Part shown: positions 7,676 through 50,478 of the stretch, in pieces
Position numbering within the stretch: position 1 is the stretch's first letter
Layout: every line of letters begins with the position of its first letter
Origin: Treponema sp.
GTDB lineage: Bacteria > Spirochaetota > Spirochaetia > Treponematales > Treponemataceae
Assembly (NCBI GenBank): GCA_016282835.1
Contig: JAEELR010000222.1
Location: 1-51,219, forward strand
DNA: 51,219 bases
Reading direction: 5' to 3'
Made by a program: the position numbers and the translations under genes
The notes under the pieces: generated by a model
What the model saw: only the letters and a program-made list of their open reading frames with translations
Database searches by the model: none
What the model was told of the DNA's origin: nothing

Positions 7676-9415
7676 TTAATAAGCTTTATCATGAACTCCA
7701 GAAATTGCTCTTCCTGAAGGTTCATCCATGTTTTTCCAGGCTGCATCCCATTCCAGAGCTTTTGCTGTACTGCAGGCAACACCGGCTTCGTGAGGAACCA
7801 CTTTTGCAGCGCTGTCACTTGGGAAGAATCTGCTGTAAATTTCCCTGTAGTAATATTCCTCTTTTGTCTTTGGAGGATTTACAGGGAAGCGGTTTTCTCT
7901 TCTGGCAAATTCTGCATCACTGATTTTTTCTTCTGTGATTTTCTTTAAGGTATCAATCCAGTTATAACCTACACCGTCACTAAACTGTTCTTTTTGTCGC
8001 CAGCAAATATCCTGTGGAAGCATATCTTCAAAAGCCTTACGCAGAATCCATTTTTCCATTCGCTGTTTACCGTCCGGAAGCTTTATGTTCATTTTGTCGC
8101 AAGGATTCAAGTTCATGGCAATATCAATAAAGTCTTTGTCCAGGAAAGGAACTCTGCCTTCTACACCCCAGGCCATTAAAGACTTATTTGCACGCAGACA
8201 GTCATAAAGATGAAGCTTACTCATTTTTCTAACTAATTCCTCGTGGAACTCCTGTGCATTTGGTGCTTTATGGAAATATAAATAACCGCCGAATAATTCA
8301 TCAGAACCTTCGCCGGAGAGAACCATTTTAATTCCCATTGATTTAATAACGCGTGCAAGCAAATACATAGGGGTTGAAGCTCTTACTGTTGTAATGTCGT
8401 AAGTTTCTATGTGATAAATTACATCTGGCAGGGCGTCCAATGCTTCCTGTATAGTAAAATGAACTTCGTGATGAACTGTGCCTATGTAATCAGCGGCTTT
8501 TTGTGCTGCAATTAAATCCGGGCTTCCTTCAAGACCAACTGCAAATGAGTGAAGCTGCGGCCACCAGGCACTTTCTTTAGAATCAGATTCAACGCGCTTC
8601 TTTGAAAACTTTTGTGTAATGGCTGCGATGATGGAAGAATCTAATCCGCCAGAAAGAAGAACGCCATAAGGAACATCAGACATAAGCTGTGCTTTTACTG
8701 CAGCTTCAAGTCCGTTCTTTACTTTATCAATAACACTTGGATTAATTACATCGCCTTTTTCATCGCAGGCCTTTGGATTGTTTTTAACCGCATCAAATTT
8801 TTCCCAGTCACGGAAATACCAGCGCTTTGGCTTTTCGTCTTTAGAATAAAAATAATGACCGTTCGGAAATTCTTCTATTGAAACACAATGTCCTTCTAAA
8901 GCTTTAAGTTCAGAAGCAACATAGTAGCGGCCCTGTTTGTCCCATCCCTGATATAATGGAATAACACCAATTTCATCGCGGGCAATAAGGTACACATCTT
9001 TTTCACTGTCATATAAAGCAAAGGCAAAAATACCGCTGAGCTTTTCTAAAAATTCTTTTCCGTAAGTTTTGTATAAAGGAATAATTACTTCACAGTCAGA
9101 CTTAGTTTTAAAATTATATTTTCTTTCGAATTCTTTTCTTATTTCCTGATGATTATAAATCTCACCGTTAGCAGCTAAAATGATTTTTCCATCGTCGCTA
9201 ATCAGAGGCTGTTTTCCAGAAAGAGGGTCTACAATTGAAAGTCTTTCGTGACTGAGAATTGCATTATTATCAGAATAAACGCCGCTCCAGTCCGGACCTC
9301 TGTGACGGATTTTTTTTGACATTTCTAAGACTTCATTTCTAAGCTGTTCGCGTAATCCTTCGTCGATTGGTACAGAACCAGTGTTTAAATCAAAAGCACC
9401 TACAAATCCACACAT
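7676..9415 (-). CDS. asnB: asparagine synthetase B, glutamine-hydrolysing
   Basis: The product is 579 residues, starting MCGFVGAFD so that Cys2 becomes the nucleophile of the class II glutamine amidotransferase domain (residues 1 to about 200, with RHRGPDWSG and NGEIYNH). The synthetase domain carries the PP-loop SGGLDSS near residue 252 and GEGSDELFGGY near 366. It makes asparagine from aspartate, ATP and glutamine in the cytosol. The start is fixed by the need for Cys2 and by a GGAGG site five bases before it. Its 5' leader carries a hairpin and U-run also found before gltD-purF, so it is probably controlled by attenuation. Confidence 0.95.
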   Translation of the reverse strand: MCGFVGAFDLNTGSVPIDEGLREQLRNEVLEMSKKIRHRGPDWSGVYSDNNAILSHERLSIVDPLSGKQPLISDDGKIILAANGEIYNHQEIRKEFERKYNFKTKSDCEVIIPLYKTYGKEFLEKLSGIFAFALYDSEKDVYLIARDEIGVIPLYQGWDKQGRYYVASELKALEGHCVSIEEFPNGHYFYSKDEKPKRWYFRDWEKFDAVKNNPKACDEKGDVINPSVIDKVKNGLEAAVKAQLMSDVPYGVLLSGGLDSSIIAAITQKFSKKRVESDSKESAWWPQLHSFAVGLEGSPDLIAAQKAADYIGTVHHEVHFTIQEALDALPDVIYHIETYDITTVRASTPMYLLARVIKSMGIKMVLSGEGSDELFGGYLYFHKAPNAQEFHEELVRKMSKLHLYDCLRANKSLMAWGVEGRVPFLDKDFIDIAMNLNPCDKMNIKLPDGKQRMEKWILRKAFEDMLPQDICWRQKEQFSDGVGYNWIDTLKKITEEKISDAEFARRENRFPVNPPKTKEEYYYREIYSRFFPSDSAAKVVPHEAGVACSTAKALEWDAAWKNMDEPSGRAISGVHDKAY

Positions 9416-9429
9416 AAAAACCTCCAAAT

Positions 9430-9490
9430 AAAAAAGGCCGTAGACAGTTCTCCGTGCCTTTTACACGAAAAATTATCTACGACCTCTTTG
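9430..9490 (-). promoter_or_regulatory. structured leader / attenuator candidate of asnB (copy A)
   Basis: On the minus strand, AAAGAGGTCGTAGA pairs with TCTACGGCCTTTTTT to close a long stem that ends in a U-run, like an intrinsic terminator. Its loop of about 30 bases holds a second stem (CGTG/CACG) followed by GGAG. The same outline, with a different but still paired inner stem, stands before gltD (46072-46142). It begins 15 bases after the -10 box and ends about a dozen bases before the asnB ribosome site. I do not recognise it as a known riboswitch. Confidence 0.7.
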
Positions 9491-9503
9491 CCTTAGTGAT
9501 TTT

Positions 9504-9532
9504 ATTTTAGACATTTTTTTTAATAATGACAA
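9504..9532 (-). promoter_or_regulatory. asnB: sigma70-type promoter of asnB
   Basis: TTGTCA (9532-9527), 17-base spacer, TAAAAT (9509-9504), all on the minus strand. The predicted start point is near 9497, just before the leader hairpin. Confidence 0.75.
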
Positions 9533-9645: not shown

Positions 9646-11985
9646 TTATTCTATTTCGCCGTTAACAACTTTTTCTAACGAAATAACTTTACCGTCAGCA
9701 ACAAGCTTCTTTCCTGCAGCAGTTGCACATTTTTCGCAAACCTTGTATTCAACTTTGCAGAAGCGGTCAATATCAATCTTTGCAGGTTTTTCACAAACTT
9801 CTTCGCCTTCAAGAGTAACCTGTGTTCCAGGAGCGGCCCAAGGAGCTGTGAGCAATTCAACCTTTTCTTTACCGTCTTCCATATAATCTGCAGCTAAAAG
9901 CATACCGTGACTTTCAACGCCTCTCATTTTTCTTGGAGCTAAGTTTGCAGCAATAATTACATGCTGACCTAAAAGCTCTTCTGGTTTTAAGTATGGTCTT
10001 AAGCCGGACTGAATGATTCTTGGTGTACCAGAACCGTCGTCCATTGTTTCAATATAAAGTTTTTCTCCCTCAGGGTTTGTATCAACTTTAATAATTTTTG
10101 CAACTTTTAATTCAATGTATTTGTTAAAGTGTTCAATTGGATTTTCTGCCATTTTAGGTTCAGACTTTTCTGCTTTAGGTGCGTCCTTGCTGTTAGCATT
10201 TGCAGCGTTTGCATTTTTGTCAGTCTTTGTGTTAGCAGAAGAAGCTTCTTTTGGTTCATTTTCCATTAAGAATTCTAAATCAATTTCGCCGGCAACACAA
10301 GGAACTCCAACCTGCCAGTTTTCAAGTACCTGTGGATTTATCTCACCAAAGATACCGGCAACTTTTCCTTTAACTAAAATTTCTGCCTGTCTTCCAGGAA
10401 TGAATCTTGAATCATTTGATTCCCTAACTTCGTACTTGTGATCGAGGTAATATAAAATTGTACTAACTTCTGCTGCAGCGTCGTTGAAGTTTGCGTTGTT
10501 GGCAGCAGTTAAAAATCCAAGTGACTGAATTGTTTTTGTTCCTGTGTTTTCAGATGGTTCAATAAAAGCAATTTTACCAACTTCAAAAATTTTATGAGGG
10601 TAAACGGCATTTGCACTCTGGCTTTCTGACTCAAACAAAGAAGCAATAATTGAAGGACGAATAAACTGATAGTTTTCGCTCATAGGGTTTGCAATTTCAA
10701 TTACATCCTTTCCATCAATTCCCATGTTATCGATATAAGATTTTTTTGAACCGAGGTAGTTAAAAATCATTTCCTGATAGCCAAGACCTGCCATAATGTT
10801 TTTAACTTTTCTGCTGTAATATGTAATTGGAAGCAGGCGGCCGATTGTAAAATCATTTGGATTTTCTGGTTCAAATTTATCAAGTCCCCAGCCAATCATT
10901 ACATCTTCTATAACATCAACTTCATGAAGGAAGTCGTTTCTGTAAGGAGCTGGCATTACTGTGAATACAATGTCATCACCTTCCTGTTTAGAAGTAAATT
11001 TATTTCCCATTAAAGATAAAGCTTTTTCAACCTGGTCTTTTGTGAAAGCAACACCAAGCTTTCTGTTAATTGCTGAAAGGCGGGCGTCAGTTGTAGGCTG
11101 GAAGTAATATGGACAAACTACATCTTTTCCTAAGCCTGTTTCGTATTCGTGCTTAACCATAACAGGAAGAATTTCGTATCCGGCATCAAAGAAATCGCAG
11201 GCAACAATATTTGCAGCAAGCATAAGGTTTTCCATGTTGTCACCGGTAAGCTCTACCATTAATTCAGTATCACCAACTTCAATCTGTCCTAAAGTTGCAC
11301 TGTTAATAATTGGTGCCATACTCATTATTTCGCCAGAATCATCTTTTAAGAGAGGATATTTGTCGAAATCTTTTAGAATCCATCCGTAGTCTTTTCCCTT
11401 TGGATGATTTGCAACAATTTCACGGAGAGTCTGTTTTTTATCATCCTGGAGAGGTACAAAACTTGTAGCGTCAGGATCTGCTGCAACATAGTGAATCGGC
11501 CATTTTAAATTTGCTGCACGATAAACACCCATAGAAAGTGACTTGCGTTTTCTACCAAAGTTCCATGCAAGCTTTTCCTGTGTCTGCATGATATCAATAA
11601 GCATTGCATTATCGATTGGTTTTCCGCTGATTACAAATGCAACCATATAAGGGCGGATATTTTTGAGGGCAGAATCAACATAAACAATTCTTGAGCCGCA
11701 GTCTTTTTTATCTTTAGCAGTAGACATAAATTTTGAATAGTCAGAATGTGCCTTTCCTTCATGTTCGCGAAGGCAGCGTGTAATACCACCTGTAGACCAA
11801 AGATCAGGGCGGTTTGTATCATTAAGTTCAATCTTTATAACTCTGTCATCTTCTGAATCGTTTTCGTTTGGTTTTTCATCAAGCTCAGCTTTAGCAAAAG
11901 TAAGTTTCTTTTCAAATGTATCCCAGTCGTATTTAGCTTCTAAAAGGTTCCAGAAAAGTTTTTCATTAACTTCAATTTTTGGCAT
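9646..11985 (-). CDS. pheT: phenylalanyl-tRNA synthetase beta subunit with fused C-terminal tRNA-binding domain
   Basis: The product is 779 residues. The first 570 or so residues match the archaeal/spirochaete-type PheRS beta chain (B3/4, B5 and catalytic-core-like parts; it lacks the N-terminal EMAPII-like domain of common bacterial PheT). After an Ala/Asn/Lys-rich linker (about 573-612) comes an EMAPII/Arc1p-type OB-fold tRNA-binding domain (about 615-720, VAKIIKVDTNPEGEKLYIE, ANLAPRKMRGVESHGMLLA) and then a short tail with two Cys pairs near 743-757 (FCKVEYKVCEKC). It charges tRNA-Phe together with PheS, which is not in this window. The added domain probably supplies tRNA affinity lost with the missing N-terminal one. 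Confidence 0.9.
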   Translation of the reverse strand: MPKIEVNEKLFWNLLEAKYDWDTFEKKLTFAKAELDEKPNENDSEDDRVIKIELNDTNRPDLWSTGGITRCLREHEGKAHSDYSKFMSTAKDKKDCGSRIVYVDSALKNIRPYMVAFVISGKPIDNAMLIDIMQTQEKLAWNFGRKRKSLSMGVYRAANLKWPIHYVAADPDATSFVPLQDDKKQTLREIVANHPKGKDYGWILKDFDKYPLLKDDSGEIMSMAPIINSATLGQIEVGDTELMVELTGDNMENLMLAANIVACDFFDAGYEILPVMVKHEYETGLGKDVVCPYYFQPTTDARLSAINRKLGVAFTKDQVEKALSLMGNKFTSKQEGDDIVFTVMPAPYRNDFLHEVDVIEDVMIGWGLDKFEPENPNDFTIGRLLPITYYSRKVKNIMAGLGYQEMIFNYLGSKKSYIDNMGIDGKDVIEIANPMSENYQFIRPSIIASLFESESQSANAVYPHKIFEVGKIAFIEPSENTGTKTIQSLGFLTAANNANFNDAAAEVSTILYYLDHKYEVRESNDSRFIPGRQAEILVKGKVAGIFGEINPQVLENWQVGVPCVAGEIDLEFLMENEPKEASSANTKTDKNANAANANSKDAPKAEKSEPKMAENPIEHFNKYIELKVAKIIKVDTNPEGEKLYIETMDDGSGTPRIIQSGLRPYLKPEELLGQHVIIAANLAPRKMRGVESHGMLLAADYMEDGKEKVELLTAPWAAPGTQVTLEGEEVCEKPAKIDIDRFCKVEYKVCEKCATAAGKKLVADGKVISLEKVVNGEIE

Positions 11986-42977: not shown

Positions 42978-44480
42978 TTATGCGGGGTATTCGCCGTTGA
43001 AGCAGCCTTGGCAGAATGATGAAGAACCAAGTGCGTTTAGCATGCCTTTTAGTGAGATGAAGGTGAGACTGTCCGCGCCGATTTCCTGGCAGATTTCCTG
43101 TACTTCGTGAGCAGAGCTTATGAGTTCGGCTTTTGTCGGGGTGTCAATTCCTAAGTGACACGGAAACTTTACCGGTGGGCTTGATACCCTGAAATGTACT
43201 TCTTTTGCTCCGGCGCGGCGGAGTATGTGTACCAGACGGCGGCTTGTGGTTCCACGCACGATTGAGTCGTCAATTACTATTACACGCTTTCCTTCGAGAT
43301 CAGACTTTATGGCGTTTAGTTTTACAAAGACCATATTTTCCCTTTCCTGCTGGGTAGGGGCAATAAAGGTTCTTCCCGTATATTTATTTTTTACGATTCC
43401 CATTACGTAAGGAATTTTCTTTTCGCGCGAGTATCCTAAGGCTGCACCAATTCCGCTGTCAGGGACACCGATTACTACATCGGCTTCAACTGTGTCTTCG
43501 CGGGCAAGTTCTGCACCCATTCTTTCGCGGGCCTGCTGTACTGCAATTCCATCGATTACACTGTCCGGACGGGCAAAATATACATACTCAAAGATGCAGG
43601 TTTTTTTAGGAGCATGAGGCAATTTGTCGTAGCCTTCTTCGCCAGGTAGAATAGATTTGATTCCTTCTTTAGTGATGATTATGATTTCGCCGGGTGCAAT
43701 GTCTCTTTCGTAAGTTCCGTTAACTGCATCGATTGCACAGGTTTCGCTTGCCAAGATATAGCCGTTATCAATTTTTCCAAGAACTAAGGGTCTGATTCCG
43801 TTTGGATCGCGTACTCCTATGAGTGTGTCTTTTGTCATTATTGTTAAAGCAAAAGAGCCTTTTATTTGCTGAACTGCATTTTTTACTGCCTGTTCAAGAC
43901 CTGCTTTGTAGTCTCGTGCGATTAGTTTTAGTATTACTTCGGTGTCGCTTGATGAAGAAAATGTTGATCCGTTTAAGGCAAGGCTTTCTTCCAATTCTCC
44001 ATAATTTGTAAGCTGTCCGTTATGTGCGAGTGCGAGTGTGCCAAGGATAAAATTGTTTACCATTGGCTGTGCGTTTTCTACAGTTTTTCCTCCGGCGGTT
44101 GCATAGCGGACATGTCCTACTGCAATGTGGCCTTTTAGGTTTGCAAGTTCCTGCGGATTAAAAACTTCTGAGACAAGCCCCATCTGCTTGTGGATTCTAA
44201 TTTTTTCTCCGTCGCTTGCTGCAATTCCTGCGCTTTCCTGTCCCCTGTGCTGTAAAGCGTATAATGCAAAGTATGAAAGGTTTGCTGCTTTAGAAGAAAC
44301 AAGGGGGAGCGTTAGTCGCACGCAAGCGTGCTTTCCGACATTTTGCTGCGCAAAAGTCGCAGGGGGAGGTGAATAGCTAGCGAGACTTTCCTCCCCCAAA
44401 AAAATTCCTACGACTCCACACTCGTCGTGCAGCTTGTCTTTTTGTAAAAACTCTTCGCTTAGATTTTCAGTTTCAAACAT
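42978..44480 (-). CDS. purF: amidophosphoribosyltransferase with repeat-encoded insert
   Basis: The product is 500 residues. PurF starts purine synthesis by turning PRPP and glutamine into phosphoribosylamine. After a short propeptide comes the class II amidotransferase Cys in DECGVVGIF, then ALQHRGQESAGI and GHVRYATAGG; the PRTase part has VIVIDDSIVRGTT and the C-terminal CQGCFNGEYP. Between GIFLGEES and SSKAANL, about 32 residues (LASYSPPPATFAQQNVGKHA onward) are extra compared with relatives and are encoded by a GC-rich palindromic element. Start ATG 44480 overlaps the gltD stop by eight bases after an AGGAAG site. The enzyme is likely still made because the frame is kept. Confidence 0.93.
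   Translation of the reverse strand: MFETENLSEEFLQKDKLHDECGVVGIFLGEESLASYSPPPATFAQQNVGKHACVRLTLPLVSSKAANLSYFALYALQHRGQESAGIAASDGEKIRIHKQMGLVSEVFNPQELANLKGHIAVGHVRYATAGGKTVENAQPMVNNFILGTLALAHNGQLTNYGELEESLALNGSTFSSSSDTEVILKLIARDYKAGLEQAVKNAVQQIKGSFALTIMTKDTLIGVRDPNGIRPLVLGKIDNGYILASETCAIDAVNGTYERDIAPGEIIIITKEGIKSILPGEEGYDKLPHAPKKTCIFEYVYFARPDSVIDGIAVQQARERMGAELAREDTVEADVVIGVPDSGIGAALGYSREKKIPYVMGIVKNKYTGRTFIAPTQQERENMVFVKLNAIKSDLEGKRVIVIDDSIVRGTTSRRLVHILRRAGAKEVHFRVSSPPVKFPCHLGIDTPTKAELISSAHEVQEICQEIGADSLTFISLKGMLNALGSSSFCQGCFNGEYPA
44303..44404 (-). repeat. GC-rich palindromic element inside purF
   Basis: Outer GGGGGA/TCCCCC-type ends enclose GCACGC-AA-GCGTGC and CGAC/GTCG plus TTTTG/CAAAA hairpins. 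It is in frame with purF and resembles 41700-41790. See the purF entry. Confidence 0.7.
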
Positions 44481-46041
44481 TAGCACTTCCTGTAAAAAAC
44501 TCGTCGATTTGTTTAGCACATTCGCGGCCTTCTGTAATTGCCCAGACAACGAGTGACTGACCACGATGCATGTCGCCTGCGGTGAACACTTTGTGAATAT
44601 TTGTATGGTAGTTATTTTCGCCTGAAGTTGCTACTGTTCCGCGGGGACCCAGCTCTACATTAAATGCGTCTGCTGTATAATTTTCGCAGCCAACGAATCC
44701 TGCAGCAACCAAAAGCAAATCTGCCTTCAAATCTTTTTCTGTGCCTGCGCGTTCTACGAGGGTGCGTTTTCCGTCTATGGTTTTAAACTCAACTTCTACA
44801 GTTTTTACGCCTGTGATTTTTCCGTTGTCGCTGTAGATTTCCTTGATTGTTGTTTCGTATACGCGAGGGTCATGGCCGTAAACTGCAATTGATTCTTCTG
44901 CACCGTAATCGGTTTTGAGAACTTTAGGCCACTGCGGCCACGGATTGTTTGGTGCACGCTCAACCGGAGGACAAGGCATCATTTCGATTTGGGTAACACT
45001 TTTTGCTCCCAGGCGGATAGAGGTTCCGGTACAGTCGTTACCAGTGTCACCGCCGCCTACGATGATTACATTTTTACCTGCAACTTTAAGGCCGATTCTT
45101 TGCTCGAGGACCTGGTCAATCTGTTCATTTGCAGGAGTGATGTTCATATTTTCTAAAGCTTGTGTTGTGTATACTACAGACTTTGTGACTTCTTTGAGGA
45201 AATCAACTGCGAACATTACACCGCCTTCAGCTCCGTTGTGACCCTGTAAGATTTTGTCCATTCCGGCTGCGTTAAGGGCACGGGCTTTTTTTGCACCGCA
45301 GCAAAGTGCTACTGCATCGAAGTTTTTAAGGATATAGTCTCTGGAAGTGTTGTTTCCGACGTCTGCATTGAATACGAATTCAACGCCTTCTTCTTTCATT
45401 AAATATATTCTGCGTTCAATAATGTTTTTTTCTAGTTTCATATTCGGGATGCCATACATTAAAAGGCCACCGGCTTTATCTTCTCGTTCAAATACTGTTA
45501 CTGAGTGTCCGCGGTGATTGAGTGTGTCGGCTACGGCAAGTCCTGAAGGTCCAGCTCCGATTACTGCTACTTTTTTTCCGCTTCGCTTTGCAGGAATTTG
45601 TGGTTTCATGTATCCGGTAGAAAATGCTTTTTCGATGATGTAGAGTTCGTTGTCGTGAACGGTTACGGCTCCATCGCCACAAACCGGGTTTCCGCAGTTG
45701 CAGGCTTTTTCGCAGAGTGCAGGACAAACGCGGCCAGTGAATTCCGGGAAATTTGATGTCATTAAAAGACGCCAGGCAGCCATATCGTACTGGCCCTTGT
45801 AAAGTGCGTCGTTCCATTCAGGGATAAGATTGTGAAGAGGGCAGCCTGTTACCATGCCTGAAAGTTTTATGGCAGACTGACACATTGGAACACCACAGTT
45901 CATGCAGCGGGCGGCCTGTTCTCTTCTTGCAGTGTCGTCAAGCTTAGGGTGAAATTCCTTAAAGTTTTTGATGCGCTCTAAAGGCGGGATATTTCCATTT
46001 TCTGTTCTCTGATAATCTAAAAAACCTGTATTCTTTCCCAT
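44473..46041 (-). CDS. gltD: glutamate synthase small subunit / NADPH-dependent oxidoreductase
   Basis: The product is 522 residues from ATG 46041 (MGKNTGF), chosen for a GGAAGGA site. The N-terminal part holds the Fe-S cysteines (CMNCGVPMCQSA, CPLHN, CPALCEKACNC). Then come FAD binding AVIGAGPSGLAVADTL and NADPH binding NVIIVGGGDTGNDC. GltD passes electrons from NADPH to the large subunit GltB, which is not in this window. It is first in an operon with purF (8-base overlap). The leader carries the same hairpin as asnB. Confidence 0.93.
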   Translation of the reverse strand: MGKNTGFLDYQRTENGNIPPLERIKNFKEFHPKLDDTARREQAARCMNCGVPMCQSAIKLSGMVTGCPLHNLIPEWNDALYKGQYDMAAWRLLMTSNFPEFTGRVCPALCEKACNCGNPVCGDGAVTVHDNELYIIEKAFSTGYMKPQIPAKRSGKKVAVIGAGPSGLAVADTLNHRGHSVTVFEREDKAGGLLMYGIPNMKLEKNIIERRIYLMKEEGVEFVFNADVGNNTSRDYILKNFDAVALCCGAKKARALNAAGMDKILQGHNGAEGGVMFAVDFLKEVTKSVVYTTQALENMNITPANEQIDQVLEQRIGLKVAGKNVIIVGGGDTGNDCTGTSIRLGAKSVTQIEMMPCPPVERAPNNPWPQWPKVLKTDYGAEESIAVYGHDPRVYETTIKEIYSDNGKITGVKTVEVEFKTIDGKRTLVERAGTEKDLKADLLLVAAGFVGCENYTADAFNVELGPRGTVATSGENNYHTNIHKVFTAGDMHRGQSLVVWAITEGRECAKQIDEFFTGSANV

Positions 46042-46071: not shown

Positions 46072-46142
46072 AAAAAAAGAGGCCGTAGACAAAACTCCTT
46101 TTCACTTGTGGTGAATAAAGAAATTTATCTACGACCTCTTTG
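46072..46142 (-). promoter_or_regulatory. structured leader / attenuator candidate of gltD-purF (copy B)
   Basis: Minus-strand AAAGAGGTCGTAGA pairs perfectly (one G-T) with TCTACGGCCTCTTT, which runs into seven U. The inner stem TTCAC/GTGAA has a different sequence from copy A (CGTG/CACG) but the same place, and is followed by AAGGAG. It starts 15 bases after the -10 box, exactly as at asnB. Confidence 0.7.
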
Positions 46143-46155
46143 TCGCTTTGTAAAT

Positions 46156-46184
46156 ACTATAATTTTTTTGTGATGAGGTGTCAA
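46156..46184 (-). promoter_or_regulatory. promoter of gltD-purF
   Basis: TTGACA (46184-46179), 17-base spacer, TATAGT (46161-46156), minus strand. Confidence 0.8.
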
Positions 46185-47202: not shown

Positions 47203-50200
47203 TTATTCTTCAGGGAACCAGAGCTTTAAGAGAGCGTCCCAGTTAGAACAGTCGGCACCAAACTTGAGGTCGGTTGCATAGAAGTCAGGATAGTTTCCGG
47301 GTACAATTTGATTTGCATCAATCTTTATAGTTTCACCGCAGACATTAAGTCCGTAGTAATTGCTGTAAAGTTCATTTCCTGTCCAGGCGTTTGACCATTT
47401 TACTGTTGTGTCATAGGAAGCTTTTTGATATCCGTCTCTCCAGCTTGAAGTGATTGCATTCGAAAGAGCTTGCTTTATATTACCTATATCAATTTGTATA
47501 TTTAAGGCTGTAAATTCAATTCCAAAATCATAATGAAGATCTATAAGCCAGTCTATTACTGTGTTGCTGGTAAAGACTGTGTAGAGTCCGTCCATAATTG
47601 CGCCCATATCATAAAGCCAGGTAAAGGAACCCTGATAATAAATAGGGTCTCCAGGTCTTACAATATAATCGCGGAGATCTTCAAGGAATGTTGTTTCATC
47701 AGCTTCTGAAATTTTCTTGTCTTTAAGTTCAAGAAGCTTTCCTGCAAGACTGTTGAACTTTGTCATTACATCATTAAGTTTACTAAGGTTAGCAAAAGTA
47801 AGTCCGCAGGCACCAGGGTAAAGAAGAGAGATATCTTTGGCGGTTAAATCTTGTCCGTAATATGTACGGTATTCGCTAAGAATTTTACTCCATTCAGTTG
47901 GGCTTAGGGTGTTGGTGTTCTTATATGATTTTACGATTTCATTTCCAACAGTTGTTATGGCAGCACCGGACTTCATGTTTGGAACGAAAGTGTCGTAATC
48001 AAGTCCGAAGCCAGGAACAGTGTTTGGAGAAGCAATAAAGTATTCGGCATTGTCTTTATACTGATATGCTTCTTCGATTGTAGAACCAAGACATACATCT
48101 TCAATGATAAGTGAAAGTTTGTTTGAGTTTGTAAAGCCTGTGTTGTTTAACACTTCAGAAACTTCTTTTGTTTTCAGGAAGGTTTGATTTCCGCCTGCAT
48201 CTGTGCCGTTTGTGTCGTCCCAGCACATTGCGCGTCGTGCATAGTTTCCGCCAGGAATAAGTGAGCGTGGTCCGCCTCCGTGGTTAGAGAACTGCAGGAT
48301 TGTTTTAGTTCCTGTAAAGTGTGCGTTTACCCAGTTGAGGTAGTTTTCGAGCGTTGTCTTAGAACTCATGTCTGCTTCGCCTTCAGAAAGCCAGTCTGCG
48401 GTAAAGCTCCAGTCTTTTGTCTGGTCTGAAAGTTCAAGGAGGGTGTCATCTGTGCGGGAATCTGGACCAAGTTCGAGAAGGTGAGTTGTTTCTTTTCCCC
48501 ACAAAAAAGAGCGCGGATTCTGACTGTCGCCTTTGAAACCGTCCCAAAGTGCAATTATTCTTATGTGATCTGTTGTTGTAAATTTTGAAAGGCCGTATTC
48601 TGCTTCGTTCAAGTCCAGGTAAATAGGGTTATTGAGGTTGTTGTCTCCGTCCATGTACATGATTAAAAGCCATTCTGTATTCTGAGGACCAGCTGTTATT
48701 GTTTTAGTTGCAGCAACTGACGAACAGCCTTCTTCATCAATTGAATAGAGATTGACTGTGTATTCTGCACCCGGTTCAATATTTTCAAGGACTGCAGAGG
48801 TTTCTTTCTGGAAGTCAACAGCTGTAAGAGTTTCGCCAGTTTTTCCGTATTCAAGTCTGTAGCTGAAGTCTGCAAGATTTTTCCAGTTGAGGTAAAATTT
48901 TGTATCGTCAAAAAGATACTTTGTAAGTGTAGTTGCTTTTGGTTTGTAAACTGCTTTTAATACAATGTTTTCTGAAATTGTAGTGTTAAAGTCGTAAGGA
49001 ACACCGTTTAATAACCATGTGGAGCTGTCGAAAGTGTAAAGACTTGAGTATTCATTGGCAACGAGTACATAAGGCGTGTCATTAAAATCAGAAATGTCTG
49101 TTCCCTTGTCAAAGTATTTTGAAACAAACTGAGAAGGAGTGGAATTTGACGGCTTAAATTTATTTCCCAAATCAAAGGTGATGGAACATTTTGAACATGC
49201 ATCACAGGAAATTTCTTTAGTGTAAAGAAGGGTGCTGCCTTTATCGTAAACTTCAACTTTATACTGGTTTACTTTTCCTGCAATAAAGCTTTCATCAGAA
49301 TAGGTGCTTGTTCCTGTATCTGAATAATCATAAAGACCTGTCTTTTGTTCTATGATTTTTTCATATTCAGAATCTGAAGAAGTTTTTCTAGAAATTGTTA
49401 CAGGATATTCCTGGTATGCAGAAGTATAAGATGCCCAGCTTAATTTGATTTGCTGAGCTTCAAGTTCGCAGGCAAGGTTTTCCGGTTCACCAAAAGTTTC
49501 TGTCTGAACAGTTCGCTTTACTGTGGATTTCAATGCGCCGTCTTTATAACATTCAATGATAAACTGAATCATTCCATAAGCATTAGCTCTTACTTTATAC
49601 GGAATGTCAAAATGTAAAGGGGTGCCTTCCTGTAAATCAGATGCGTTATATTCTCCAATAACTGTAGGGGATGAATATGAACCTGCATTTCTTTCCTTGA
49701 TTTTGTAAGAATCATAAAGTGAATAATTCCAGAGAAGATCTGCATAAGAGTATCCGCACTGAATAAGCTTAAGGTCAAGATTGTCTTCTGTGTCTTGAGG
49801 AGTTACAGAAATTTCTGAGCCTGTACCAAGATCTTTTCCTTCGCTATCCAGCAGAACGATTTTATAATAGTTTTCTTTATTAGGTGTGTATTCGTAATCA
49901 GCATAACTTGAATCGTCATTGTTGCATTCACCGATTAAAGTCCAGTCAGAAGTGCTTTCTGTTTTTCTGTAGATTTTTATTAAAGCAATTTTTGATTTTG
50001 ATCCCGGCTTTGTAAATTTTATTTCAACAGCTTTTCCGTAAGAATTGTATTTGTTGAATTCACAAACAAGATTGTCTAAAGGACCGCTGTCTTTGGTGTG
50101 AATTGAGATGGTTGTATATAGATATTCATAGGCAGAAATATCTTCATATGTAAGGCGGATGTAATAATCTGTGTTGGGCTCAAGGTTTCTTATTGTCCAT

Positions 50201-50478
50201 GGGAGAGAATACTGAGCATAAGTTGGAAGAGAGTTGTAATTGTAGTCGCTGGAGAAATCCTGTGAGGTACTCCATTCGAGTTTTGTATAGTTATAATTGT
50301 CTGTCCAGTCCAAGTTGAGTTCACAATAAGACATTCCGATTTTTTCTGCCCTTAAGTTGAGCTTGAACGGTTCGGCTGGCTGGTTCTGGTTACCGAAGTT
50401 TTCAAATAAAGGACATCCGCTAAAAATGATTGCTGCGGATAATAAACTAATAAAATAAAGTGAGAGTTTTTTGTTCAT
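47203..50478 (-). CDS. clostripain-family (C11) cysteine peptidase lipoprotein
   Basis: The product is 1091 residues. Signal LLSAAIIFSG-C22 makes it a lipoprotein at the cell surface. Residues about 35-410 hold several fibronectin-type-III-like beta repeats, and about 425-510 a Listeria-Bacteroides-type repeat (ITFDLGNKFKPS to VLKAVYKP), then another Fn3 unit. The peptidase domain starts near 604 (LLIMYMDGDNNLNN), with the catalytic His in FSNHGGGPRS (about 730) and the catalytic Cys in IIEDVCLGSTIEEA (about 794). Clostripain cuts after Arg or Lys. It is a single gene with its own terminator. Confidence 0.9.
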   Translation of the reverse strand: MNKKLSLYFISLLSAAIIFSGCPLFENFGNQNQPAEPFKLNLRAEKIGMSYCELNLDWTDNYNYTKLEWSTSQDFSSDYNYNSLPTYAQYSLPWTIRNLEPNTDYYIRLTYEDISAYEYLYTTISIHTKDSGPLDNLVCEFNKYNSYGKAVEIKFTKPGSKSKIALIKIYRKTESTSDWTLIGECNNDDSSYADYEYTPNKENYYKIVLLDSEGKDLGTGSEISVTPQDTEDNLDLKLIQCGYSYADLLWNYSLYDSYKIKERNAGSYSSPTVIGEYNASDLQEGTPLHFDIPYKVRANAYGMIQFIIECYKDGALKSTVKRTVQTETFGEPENLACELEAQQIKLSWASYTSAYQEYPVTISRKTSSDSEYEKIIEQKTGLYDYSDTGTSTYSDESFIAGKVNQYKVEVYDKGSTLLYTKEISCDACSKCSITFDLGNKFKPSNSTPSQFVSKYFDKGTDISDFNDTPYVLVANEYSSLYTFDSSTWLLNGVPYDFNTTISENIVLKAVYKPKATTLTKYLFDDTKFYLNWKNLADFSYRLEYGKTGETLTAVDFQKETSAVLENIEPGAEYTVNLYSIDEEGCSSVAATKTITAGPQNTEWLLIMYMDGDNNLNNPIYLDLNEAEYGLSKFTTTDHIRIIALWDGFKGDSQNPRSFLWGKETTHLLELGPDSRTDDTLLELSDQTKDWSFTADWLSEGEADMSSKTTLENYLNWVNAHFTGTKTILQFSNHGGGPRSLIPGGNYARRAMCWDDTNGTDAGGNQTFLKTKEVSEVLNNTGFTNSNKLSLIIEDVCLGSTIEEAYQYKDNAEYFIASPNTVPGFGLDYDTFVPNMKSGAAITTVGNEIVKSYKNTNTLSPTEWSKILSEYRTYYGQDLTAKDISLLYPGACGLTFANLSKLNDVMTKFNSLAGKLLELKDKKISEADETTFLEDLRDYIVRPGDPIYYQGSFTWLYDMGAIMDGLYTVFTSNTVIDWLIDLHYDFGIEFTALNIQIDIGNIKQALSNAITSSWRDGYQKASYDTTVKWSNAWTGNELYSNYYGLNVCGETIKIDANQIVPGNYPDFYATDLKFGADCSNWDALLKLWFPEE

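Follow-up and report, generated by a model that had tools for sequence, protein, structure and literature searches.

Leaders in front of asnB and gltD-purF

The window, i.e., the whole stretch of DNA analysed here (51,219 nt), derives from a Treponema MAG and carries two leaders, one preceding asnB and another preceding gltD-purF, both read on the minus strand. Each of them consists of a promoter, 14 nt, a hairpin of 16-18 bp and a U-run. In the asnB leader, the -35 box TTGTCA (9527..9532) and the -10 box TAAAAT (9504..9509) are separated by a 17-nt spacer, and 14 nt lie between the latter and a hexaloop discussed below. Sequence, folding and alignment define an intrinsic terminator at 9430..9489, the 5' arm of which (AAAGAGGUCGUAGAUA, 9489-9474) pairs with the 3' arm (UGUCUACGGCCUUUUU, 9446-9431). 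The U-run (9435-9430) is directly followed by the Shine-Dalgarno motif GGAGG (9425-9421) and the start codon ATG (9415-9413) of the gene for asparagine synthase B (asnB, 7676..9415; NCBIfam NF006949, 880 bits). Promoter, stem and U-run, which an earlier, sequence-only reading had placed at 9430-9532 just before the asnB ribosome site, are all present, as is that site, on the minus strand. The same reading counted 15 bases from promoter to stem in both copies; the spacing is indeed equal in the two, with an actual length of 14 nt.

The second leader has the -35 box TTGACA (46179..46184), a 17-nt spacer, the -10 box TATAGT (46156..46161), again 14 nt to the hexaloop, and an intrinsic terminator (46076..46141) with an outer stem of 18 bp (46141-46124 paired with 46093-46076) and a U-run. 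It precedes gltD for the small subunit of glutamate synthase (44473..46041, ATG at 46041-46039; TIGR01317, 579 bits) and, as the second gene of this operon, purF for amidophosphoribosyltransferase (42978..44564; TIGR01134, 524 bits, matching from residue 91). The called start of purF overlaps gltD, and the true start probably lies further in.

The predicted folding energies are -35.9 kcal/mol (z = -7.9) for the asnB leader and -39.9 kcal/mol (z = -9.2) for the gltD leader, with none of 200 dinucleotide shuffles folding as well; the reverse strand folds much more weakly than the gene strand. Elsewhere in the window, an open reading frame of 1091 aa on the minus strand (47203-50478) has no NCBIfam match, and an archaeal-type PheT (9646-11985, minus strand) ends in a C-terminal tRNA-binding domain resembling MetG beta/Trbp111 (residues ~588-723).

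Homologous leaders and the genes behind them

A BLAST search with the 156-nt leader against its own genome returned only the leader itself, so that a pattern search and a covariance model were needed to find further copies. With two mismatches allowed in the stem, a third copy with compensatory changes in the outer stem was found before gltB in the source MAG; the other matches to the stem words in this genome are mostly due to chance, as control counts were higher. Altogether, the source MAG has leaders before asnB, gltD-purF, gltB and the gene for type III glutamine synthetase (GSIII), the last as a tandem (C50). The pattern search gave about 20 more copies in relatives. In an alignment of 22 copies, 97.1% of cells are paired and nine pairs have changed on both sides; the covariation score is 0.426, compared with 0.191 for shuffled and at most 0.132 for slid alignments. 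Covariation, which had been proposed from the two window copies, thus holds in 22. In contrast, the inner stem and the GGAG in the loop, to which the sequence-only reading drew attention, vary freely across copies, and the GGAG is not conserved.

The covariance model R1, built from aligned leader copies, matches 106 of the 146 genomes of the genus with up to 11 matches each, some of which are the reverse strand of the same palindrome; we refer to matches with E at most 1e-9 as strong. The genomes are mostly MAGs and related to each other, as are the sites, so the counts overstate independence. Across the phylum, R1 has matches in 39 of 393 genomes, of which 35 belong to the same family, and weak matches outside the family (G294, G343 and G270) fall in genomes without an ANTAR gene. 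Among the matches listed, a pattern scan of named genomes gave only Treponema and spirochaete records, including T. bryantii B25, T. ruminis RU1 and T. zioleckii kT3. A search of phages was without match. Of 198 homologous sites, 182 have upstream of them a -35/-10 pair with a score of 8 or more out of 12; AT-rich sequence blurs the histogram of -10 distances for the full set of sites, and the constant spacing hence rests on sequences read directly.

Behind about 100 R1 matches we identified GSIII, asnB, gltB, amtB, gltD, dapF, purF, pyrG and gdhA, along with single cases that include glnA (type I glutamine synthetase), an aminotransferase and carB (from a weak match). The structure first seen in the window is accordingly a leader terminator conserved upstream of nitrogen genes; the search by covariance model that had been suggested as a check returned homologues upstream of amidotransferase genes with an excess of compensatory change. 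One attenuator precedes a fusion of ammonium transporter and PII (L160:2718-4403, minus strand; PII at residues ~449-558). Others (L108:1468-1532; L107:3338-3403 and 470-530) lie before dapF and an aminotransferase resembling LL-diaminopimelate aminotransferase, and would tie diaminopimelate synthesis to the nitrogen regulon.

A predicted hexaloop hairpin at the 5' end

The leaders share the consensus ACGRC [AAAGAN] GNCGU, in which bases immediately upstream of the terminator are paired with bases within its 5' arm. The first ~20 nt can fold as a stem capped by a hexaloop, and this fold and the 5' arm of the terminator are mutually exclusive. In the asnB leader this candidate antiterminator, supported by the isolated fold and by the statistics of 198 sites given below, reads CUAAGGC [AAAGAG] GUCGUAG (9477..9496, minus strand; hexaloop AAAGAG at 9484..9489), with a core stem GGC/GUC, one A.G mismatch and then CUA/UAG. 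Folded alone, the first 22 nt are predicted to form the hexaloop hairpin with -3.3 kcal/mol; its counterpart in the gltD leader, GCGAC [AAAGAG] GUCGU (46131..46146, minus strand; hexaloop 46141-46136), has -6.0 kcal/mol. When folding of the growing RNA was modelled, both leaders adopted the hexaloop hairpin once ~22 nt were present and the terminator at full length. The 5' hairpin is imperfect in two copies of the source MAG, with the A.G in asnB and an A.C mismatch in gltB; the latter makes the hairpin less stable, and no hexaloop is predicted for the 5' end of the gltB copy when folded alone.

Over 198 distinct sites, loop position 1 is A in 196 and position 4 is G in 197, positions 3, 5 and 6 are variable, and 192 sites have C:G as the closing pair. 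At the -2/+2 stem position A-U, G-U and G-C exchange for one another, and 93.4% of sites are paired here as compared with 89.2 ± 1.4% after shuffling (0 of 500 shuffles as high), in a test that is partly circular, since R1 was trained on AAAGA. Pairing within the terminator cannot explain this covariation, because the 5' strand of the hexaloop stem lies outside the terminator.

These data bear on a rival reading, in which a transcription factor binds the inverted repeat as a DNA operator and the RNA structure is incidental. Such an operator would fit the strong sequence conservation of the outer repeat on both arms and its position next to the promoter, but would leave unexplained why the U-run sits on the 3' side of the gene strand, why folding favours that strand, why the exchanges are of RNA type (G-U, G-C and A-U) and why the 5' strand of the hexaloop stem covaries while lying outside the repeat. 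We consider an operator extremely unlikely.

The targets of the ANTAR proteins EutV (eut), NasR (nasF) and AmiR (amiE) have in common a hexaloop with A1 and G4 closed by a C:G pair, a short stem sharing bases with the 5' arm of an intrinsic terminator, a location before genes of nitrogen metabolism and a cognate ANTAR protein in the genome (PMC3369931, PMC8934654, PMC7496416). The Treponema leaders possess the A1/G4 hexaloop with a stem of 3 bp or more, and the hairpin overlaps the terminator 5' arm in the manner of P2. Judged by its sequence, the 5' hairpin is an ANTAR-target loop. It was overlooked when the leader was first described as unlike known ones, although a 5' A1/G4 hexaloop hairpin over the terminator 5' arm is the hallmark of ANTAR attenuators.

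Two differences from the EutV, NasR and AmiR targets were found: the latter have two hexaloops joined by a short linker, whereas the Treponema leaders have one per terminator, and the Treponema hexaloop is situated where the transcript is predicted to begin. No second hexaloop hairpin (P1) with a linker of ~2-25 nt was detected above background. In the 60 nt upstream, A..G hexaloops occur at 4 of 115 strong sites, fewer than other loop types; in the next 40 nt they occur at 9 of 115 (A..T, 36), and inside the terminator at 8 of 198 (A..T, 17). It could nevertheless be argued that these are canonical dual-hexaloop targets, the second loop of which was overlooked upstream or in the terminator loop or is supplied by a tandem unit. 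Indeed, in the 120 nt 3' of the terminator a further A..G hexaloop occurs in 47 of 198 leaders, many of these as part of a complete second (tandem) unit, and no other loop type occurs there in more than 13. However, in none of the three regions given above does the second loop exceed background, it is absent from about three quarters of the leaders, both window leaders included, and the promoter leaves no room for it upstream. A dual-hexaloop target is, in our view, unlikely.

The single loop is at odds with what is known from EutV, the targets of which require two hexaloops with a linker of 5-12 nt, deletion of the first abolishing induction (PMC3369931). One loop may hence not suffice, unless the Treponema ANTAR protein differs. 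A single hairpin is bound less tightly by NasR (~12 uM). The EutV dimer binds only one hexaloop at a time, and the single hexaloop was proposed as its minimal binding unit; the question of why two are needed was left open, single-hexaloop sites were proposed to exist where the time limit set by a moving polymerase is absent, and a bioinformatic search was called for (PMC8934654).

The ANTAR protein and the putative mechanism

Within the genus, 126 of 146 genomes encode the ANTAR domain (PF03861), namely 75 of 78 with a strong R1 match as compared with 51 of the other 68 (p = 2e-4); all 48 strong-match genomes with completeness of at least 85% are among them. In other families of the order no ANTAR was found in 17 genomes. 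The 51 ANTAR-positive genomes lacking a strong match are explained, at least in part, by divergent stems. In ANTAR-positive genomes without any R1 match, the GSIII leaders consist of a promoter, ACAUC [AAAGGC] GAUGU and a terminator, and the asnB leaders carry AGAC/GUCU or AGUC/GACU stems with the same loop and likewise a terminator behind them. In G427, from another spirochaete family, the GSIII leader contains CAGC [AAAGAC] GCUG with a terminator after it, and an ANTAR gene is located close by.

We collected 24 such leaders outside the model, registered by eye at the loop (two from the ANTAR-negative G096 and one from G427): 90.6% of cells are paired against 67.0 ± 3.8% after shuffling, and the covariation score is 0.639 against 0.242 (0 of 500 shuffles). 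Position 4 is G in all 24 and position 1 is A in 20, the four with G at position 1 all preceding asnB. Scored automatically, an A..G hexaloop precedes GSIII in 15 of 17 ANTAR-positive and one of nine ANTAR-negative genomes (Fisher p = 2e-4). Both this association and the stem covariation outside the model are free of the circularity of R1. In four related ANTAR-negative genomes (G166, G156, G143 and G131) no hexaloop was found in the GSIII leader and promoter and terminator are kept; the terminator-like hairpin upstream of GSIII (L345, L346, L348 and L349) reads GGCGAUGUAAAC...GUUUGCAUCG with a U-run. These leaders are either a relic or under other control.

One may ask whether any regulator is involved, as a constitutive 5' stabiliser or leaky terminator would agree with three fairly complete genomes with R1 matches in which ANTAR was not detected (G007, G013 and G034). 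It would account neither for loop positions 1 and 4 and the covarying 5' stem outside the terminator, nor for the ANTAR association and the nitrogen-centred regulon, and appears most improbable. A riboswitch, the leader binding glutamine or another small molecule with no protein, would suit the glutamine-centred genes and a structured leader ending in a terminator. Glutamine riboswitches and T-boxes in Rfam likewise occupy leaders of glutamine or amino-acid genes; the Treponema leaders match neither, and among all Rfam families none was matched at gathering score, nor did raising E to 10 yield a plausible match. Moreover, a conserved aptamer core is absent, the inner stem and loop being free to vary; constraint beyond the terminator stem is confined to the 6-nt loop with its stem of 3-5 bp, stem sequences are swapped wholesale while the loop stays, and presence of the leader tracks the ANTAR gene. 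We regard a riboswitch as very unlikely. The effector had initially been imagined as a bound ligand, protein or RNA; of these, a protein is retained, with the ANTAR protein as the best-supported candidate because the A1/G4 hexaloop hairpin overlaps the terminator 5' arm, and a small-molecule ligand is not.

In the source MAG the ANTAR domain is encoded at C70:4904-5062 and scores 55.5 bits (curated cut-off, 27.3), while the receiver (REC) remains below the Pfam cut-off (17.4 vs 30.2 bits). The nearest solved relatives of the protein are Rv1626, EutV, AmiR and NasR. In 36 proteins compared, the receiver half keeps the phospho-acceptor Asp in 33 and Lys in 20, Thr is often lost, and the first residue of the acidic pocket is replaced by T/S/C/L/A in all 36, which departs from a phosphorylatable REC-ANTAR protein of EutV type. 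The positions matching EutV K143, K147 and M172 (residues as in PMC8934654) are K/R, K/R and M in 36 of 36, and His and Glu occupy the places of Y164 and R168. At 48 of 50 loci, the ANTAR gene follows glnA immediately on its 3' side and on the same strand, with a few loci showing the same genome twice. Of the genomes tested in the genus, glnA is present in 10 of 10 with ANTAR and one of 12 without, while GSIII is found in almost every genome (26 of 27). That GlnA is probably the sensor partner of the ANTAR protein is suggested by gene order, co-inheritance and the degenerate receiver.

Taken from sequence, the most plausible reading, to which we assign a probability of roughly 0.87, is that each leader attenuates transcription under the control of a protein, in the manner of ANTAR systems and with a single hexaloop. 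To judge from the -10 spacing, RNA would start approximately at the 5' strand of the hexaloop hairpin, and the first ~20 nt would form a short stem capped by A-N-N-G-N-N. Without protein, the structure predicts that the stabler terminator of 16-18 bp captures the loop and the 3' strand of the 5' stem and that RNA polymerase terminates at the U-run, ahead of the gene. By analogy with EutV and NasR, an active ANTAR protein would bind the hexaloop and hold the 5' hairpin, permitting read-through. The signal, proposed with moderate confidence, may be glutamine or nitrogen status, conveyed by contact of the ANTAR protein with the neighbouring GlnA (cf. AmiC-AmiR); this is the likeliest route because the ANTAR gene is located 3' of glnA, is co-inherited with it and encodes a degenerate receiver. 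Going by the identity of the genes, the outcome would be a single regulon for nitrogen assimilation, the members of which are turned on jointly when nitrogen is limiting. Only tentatively, and at somewhat less than even odds, do we propose that a single hexaloop at the 5' end suffices without a recruitment hairpin and that direct contact between the ANTAR protein and GlnA sets the switch; if so, the feedback state of an enzyme would control RNA read-through of a whole nitrogen regulon.

The pairing resembles AmiC-AmiR of Pseudomonas aeruginosa, in which an ANTAR protein with a degenerate receiver is likewise encoded adjacent to a putative partner; AmiR is among the PDB sequences closest to the Treponema protein. 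AmiC controls AmiR. The neighbour of AmiR is AmiC, whereas that of the Treponema protein is glutamine synthetase, a candidate partner from gene order. Another likeness exists with Desulfotomaculum acetoxidans, the dual-hexaloop nitrogen regulon of which was found with a two-hairpin model (PMC3369931): ANTAR targets precede genes for glutamate and glutamine synthesis, ammonium transport and PII in several operons. Treponema differs in its single-hexaloop leaders and in a wider set of amidotransferase genes (asnB, purF and pyrG) plus dapF. NitR of Clostridium acetobutylicum is cited in PMC4676874 as an antiterminator for ammonia assimilation, and on that citation shares with the Treponema leaders the antitermination control of this process. 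Spirochaetes are unmentioned in the main texts of PMC3369931 and PMC8164766, and the literature searched, most subscription journals excepted, contains no such single-hexaloop attenuator and no ANTAR regulon in Treponema.

As read from its sequence, the leader is probably an attenuator that operates as ANTAR systems do, in a new form with a single hexaloop. With about 200 distinct copies, the leaders appear to be natural examples of attenuators that have one hexaloop and act under a moving polymerase; they suggest how abundant rumen and gut treponemes may set ammonia assimilation and supply a covariance seed for a family absent from Rfam. Tandem units in the same genomes allow comparison with single-hexaloop leaders. 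Such tandem attenuators were observed at L169:3346-3489, L118:11552-11698, L121:13054-13196 and L144:3899-4079 (minus strand) and at L130:412-550 (plus strand), and the second hexaloop-plus-terminator unit, apparently devoid of its own promoter, is often found before gltB and GSIII.
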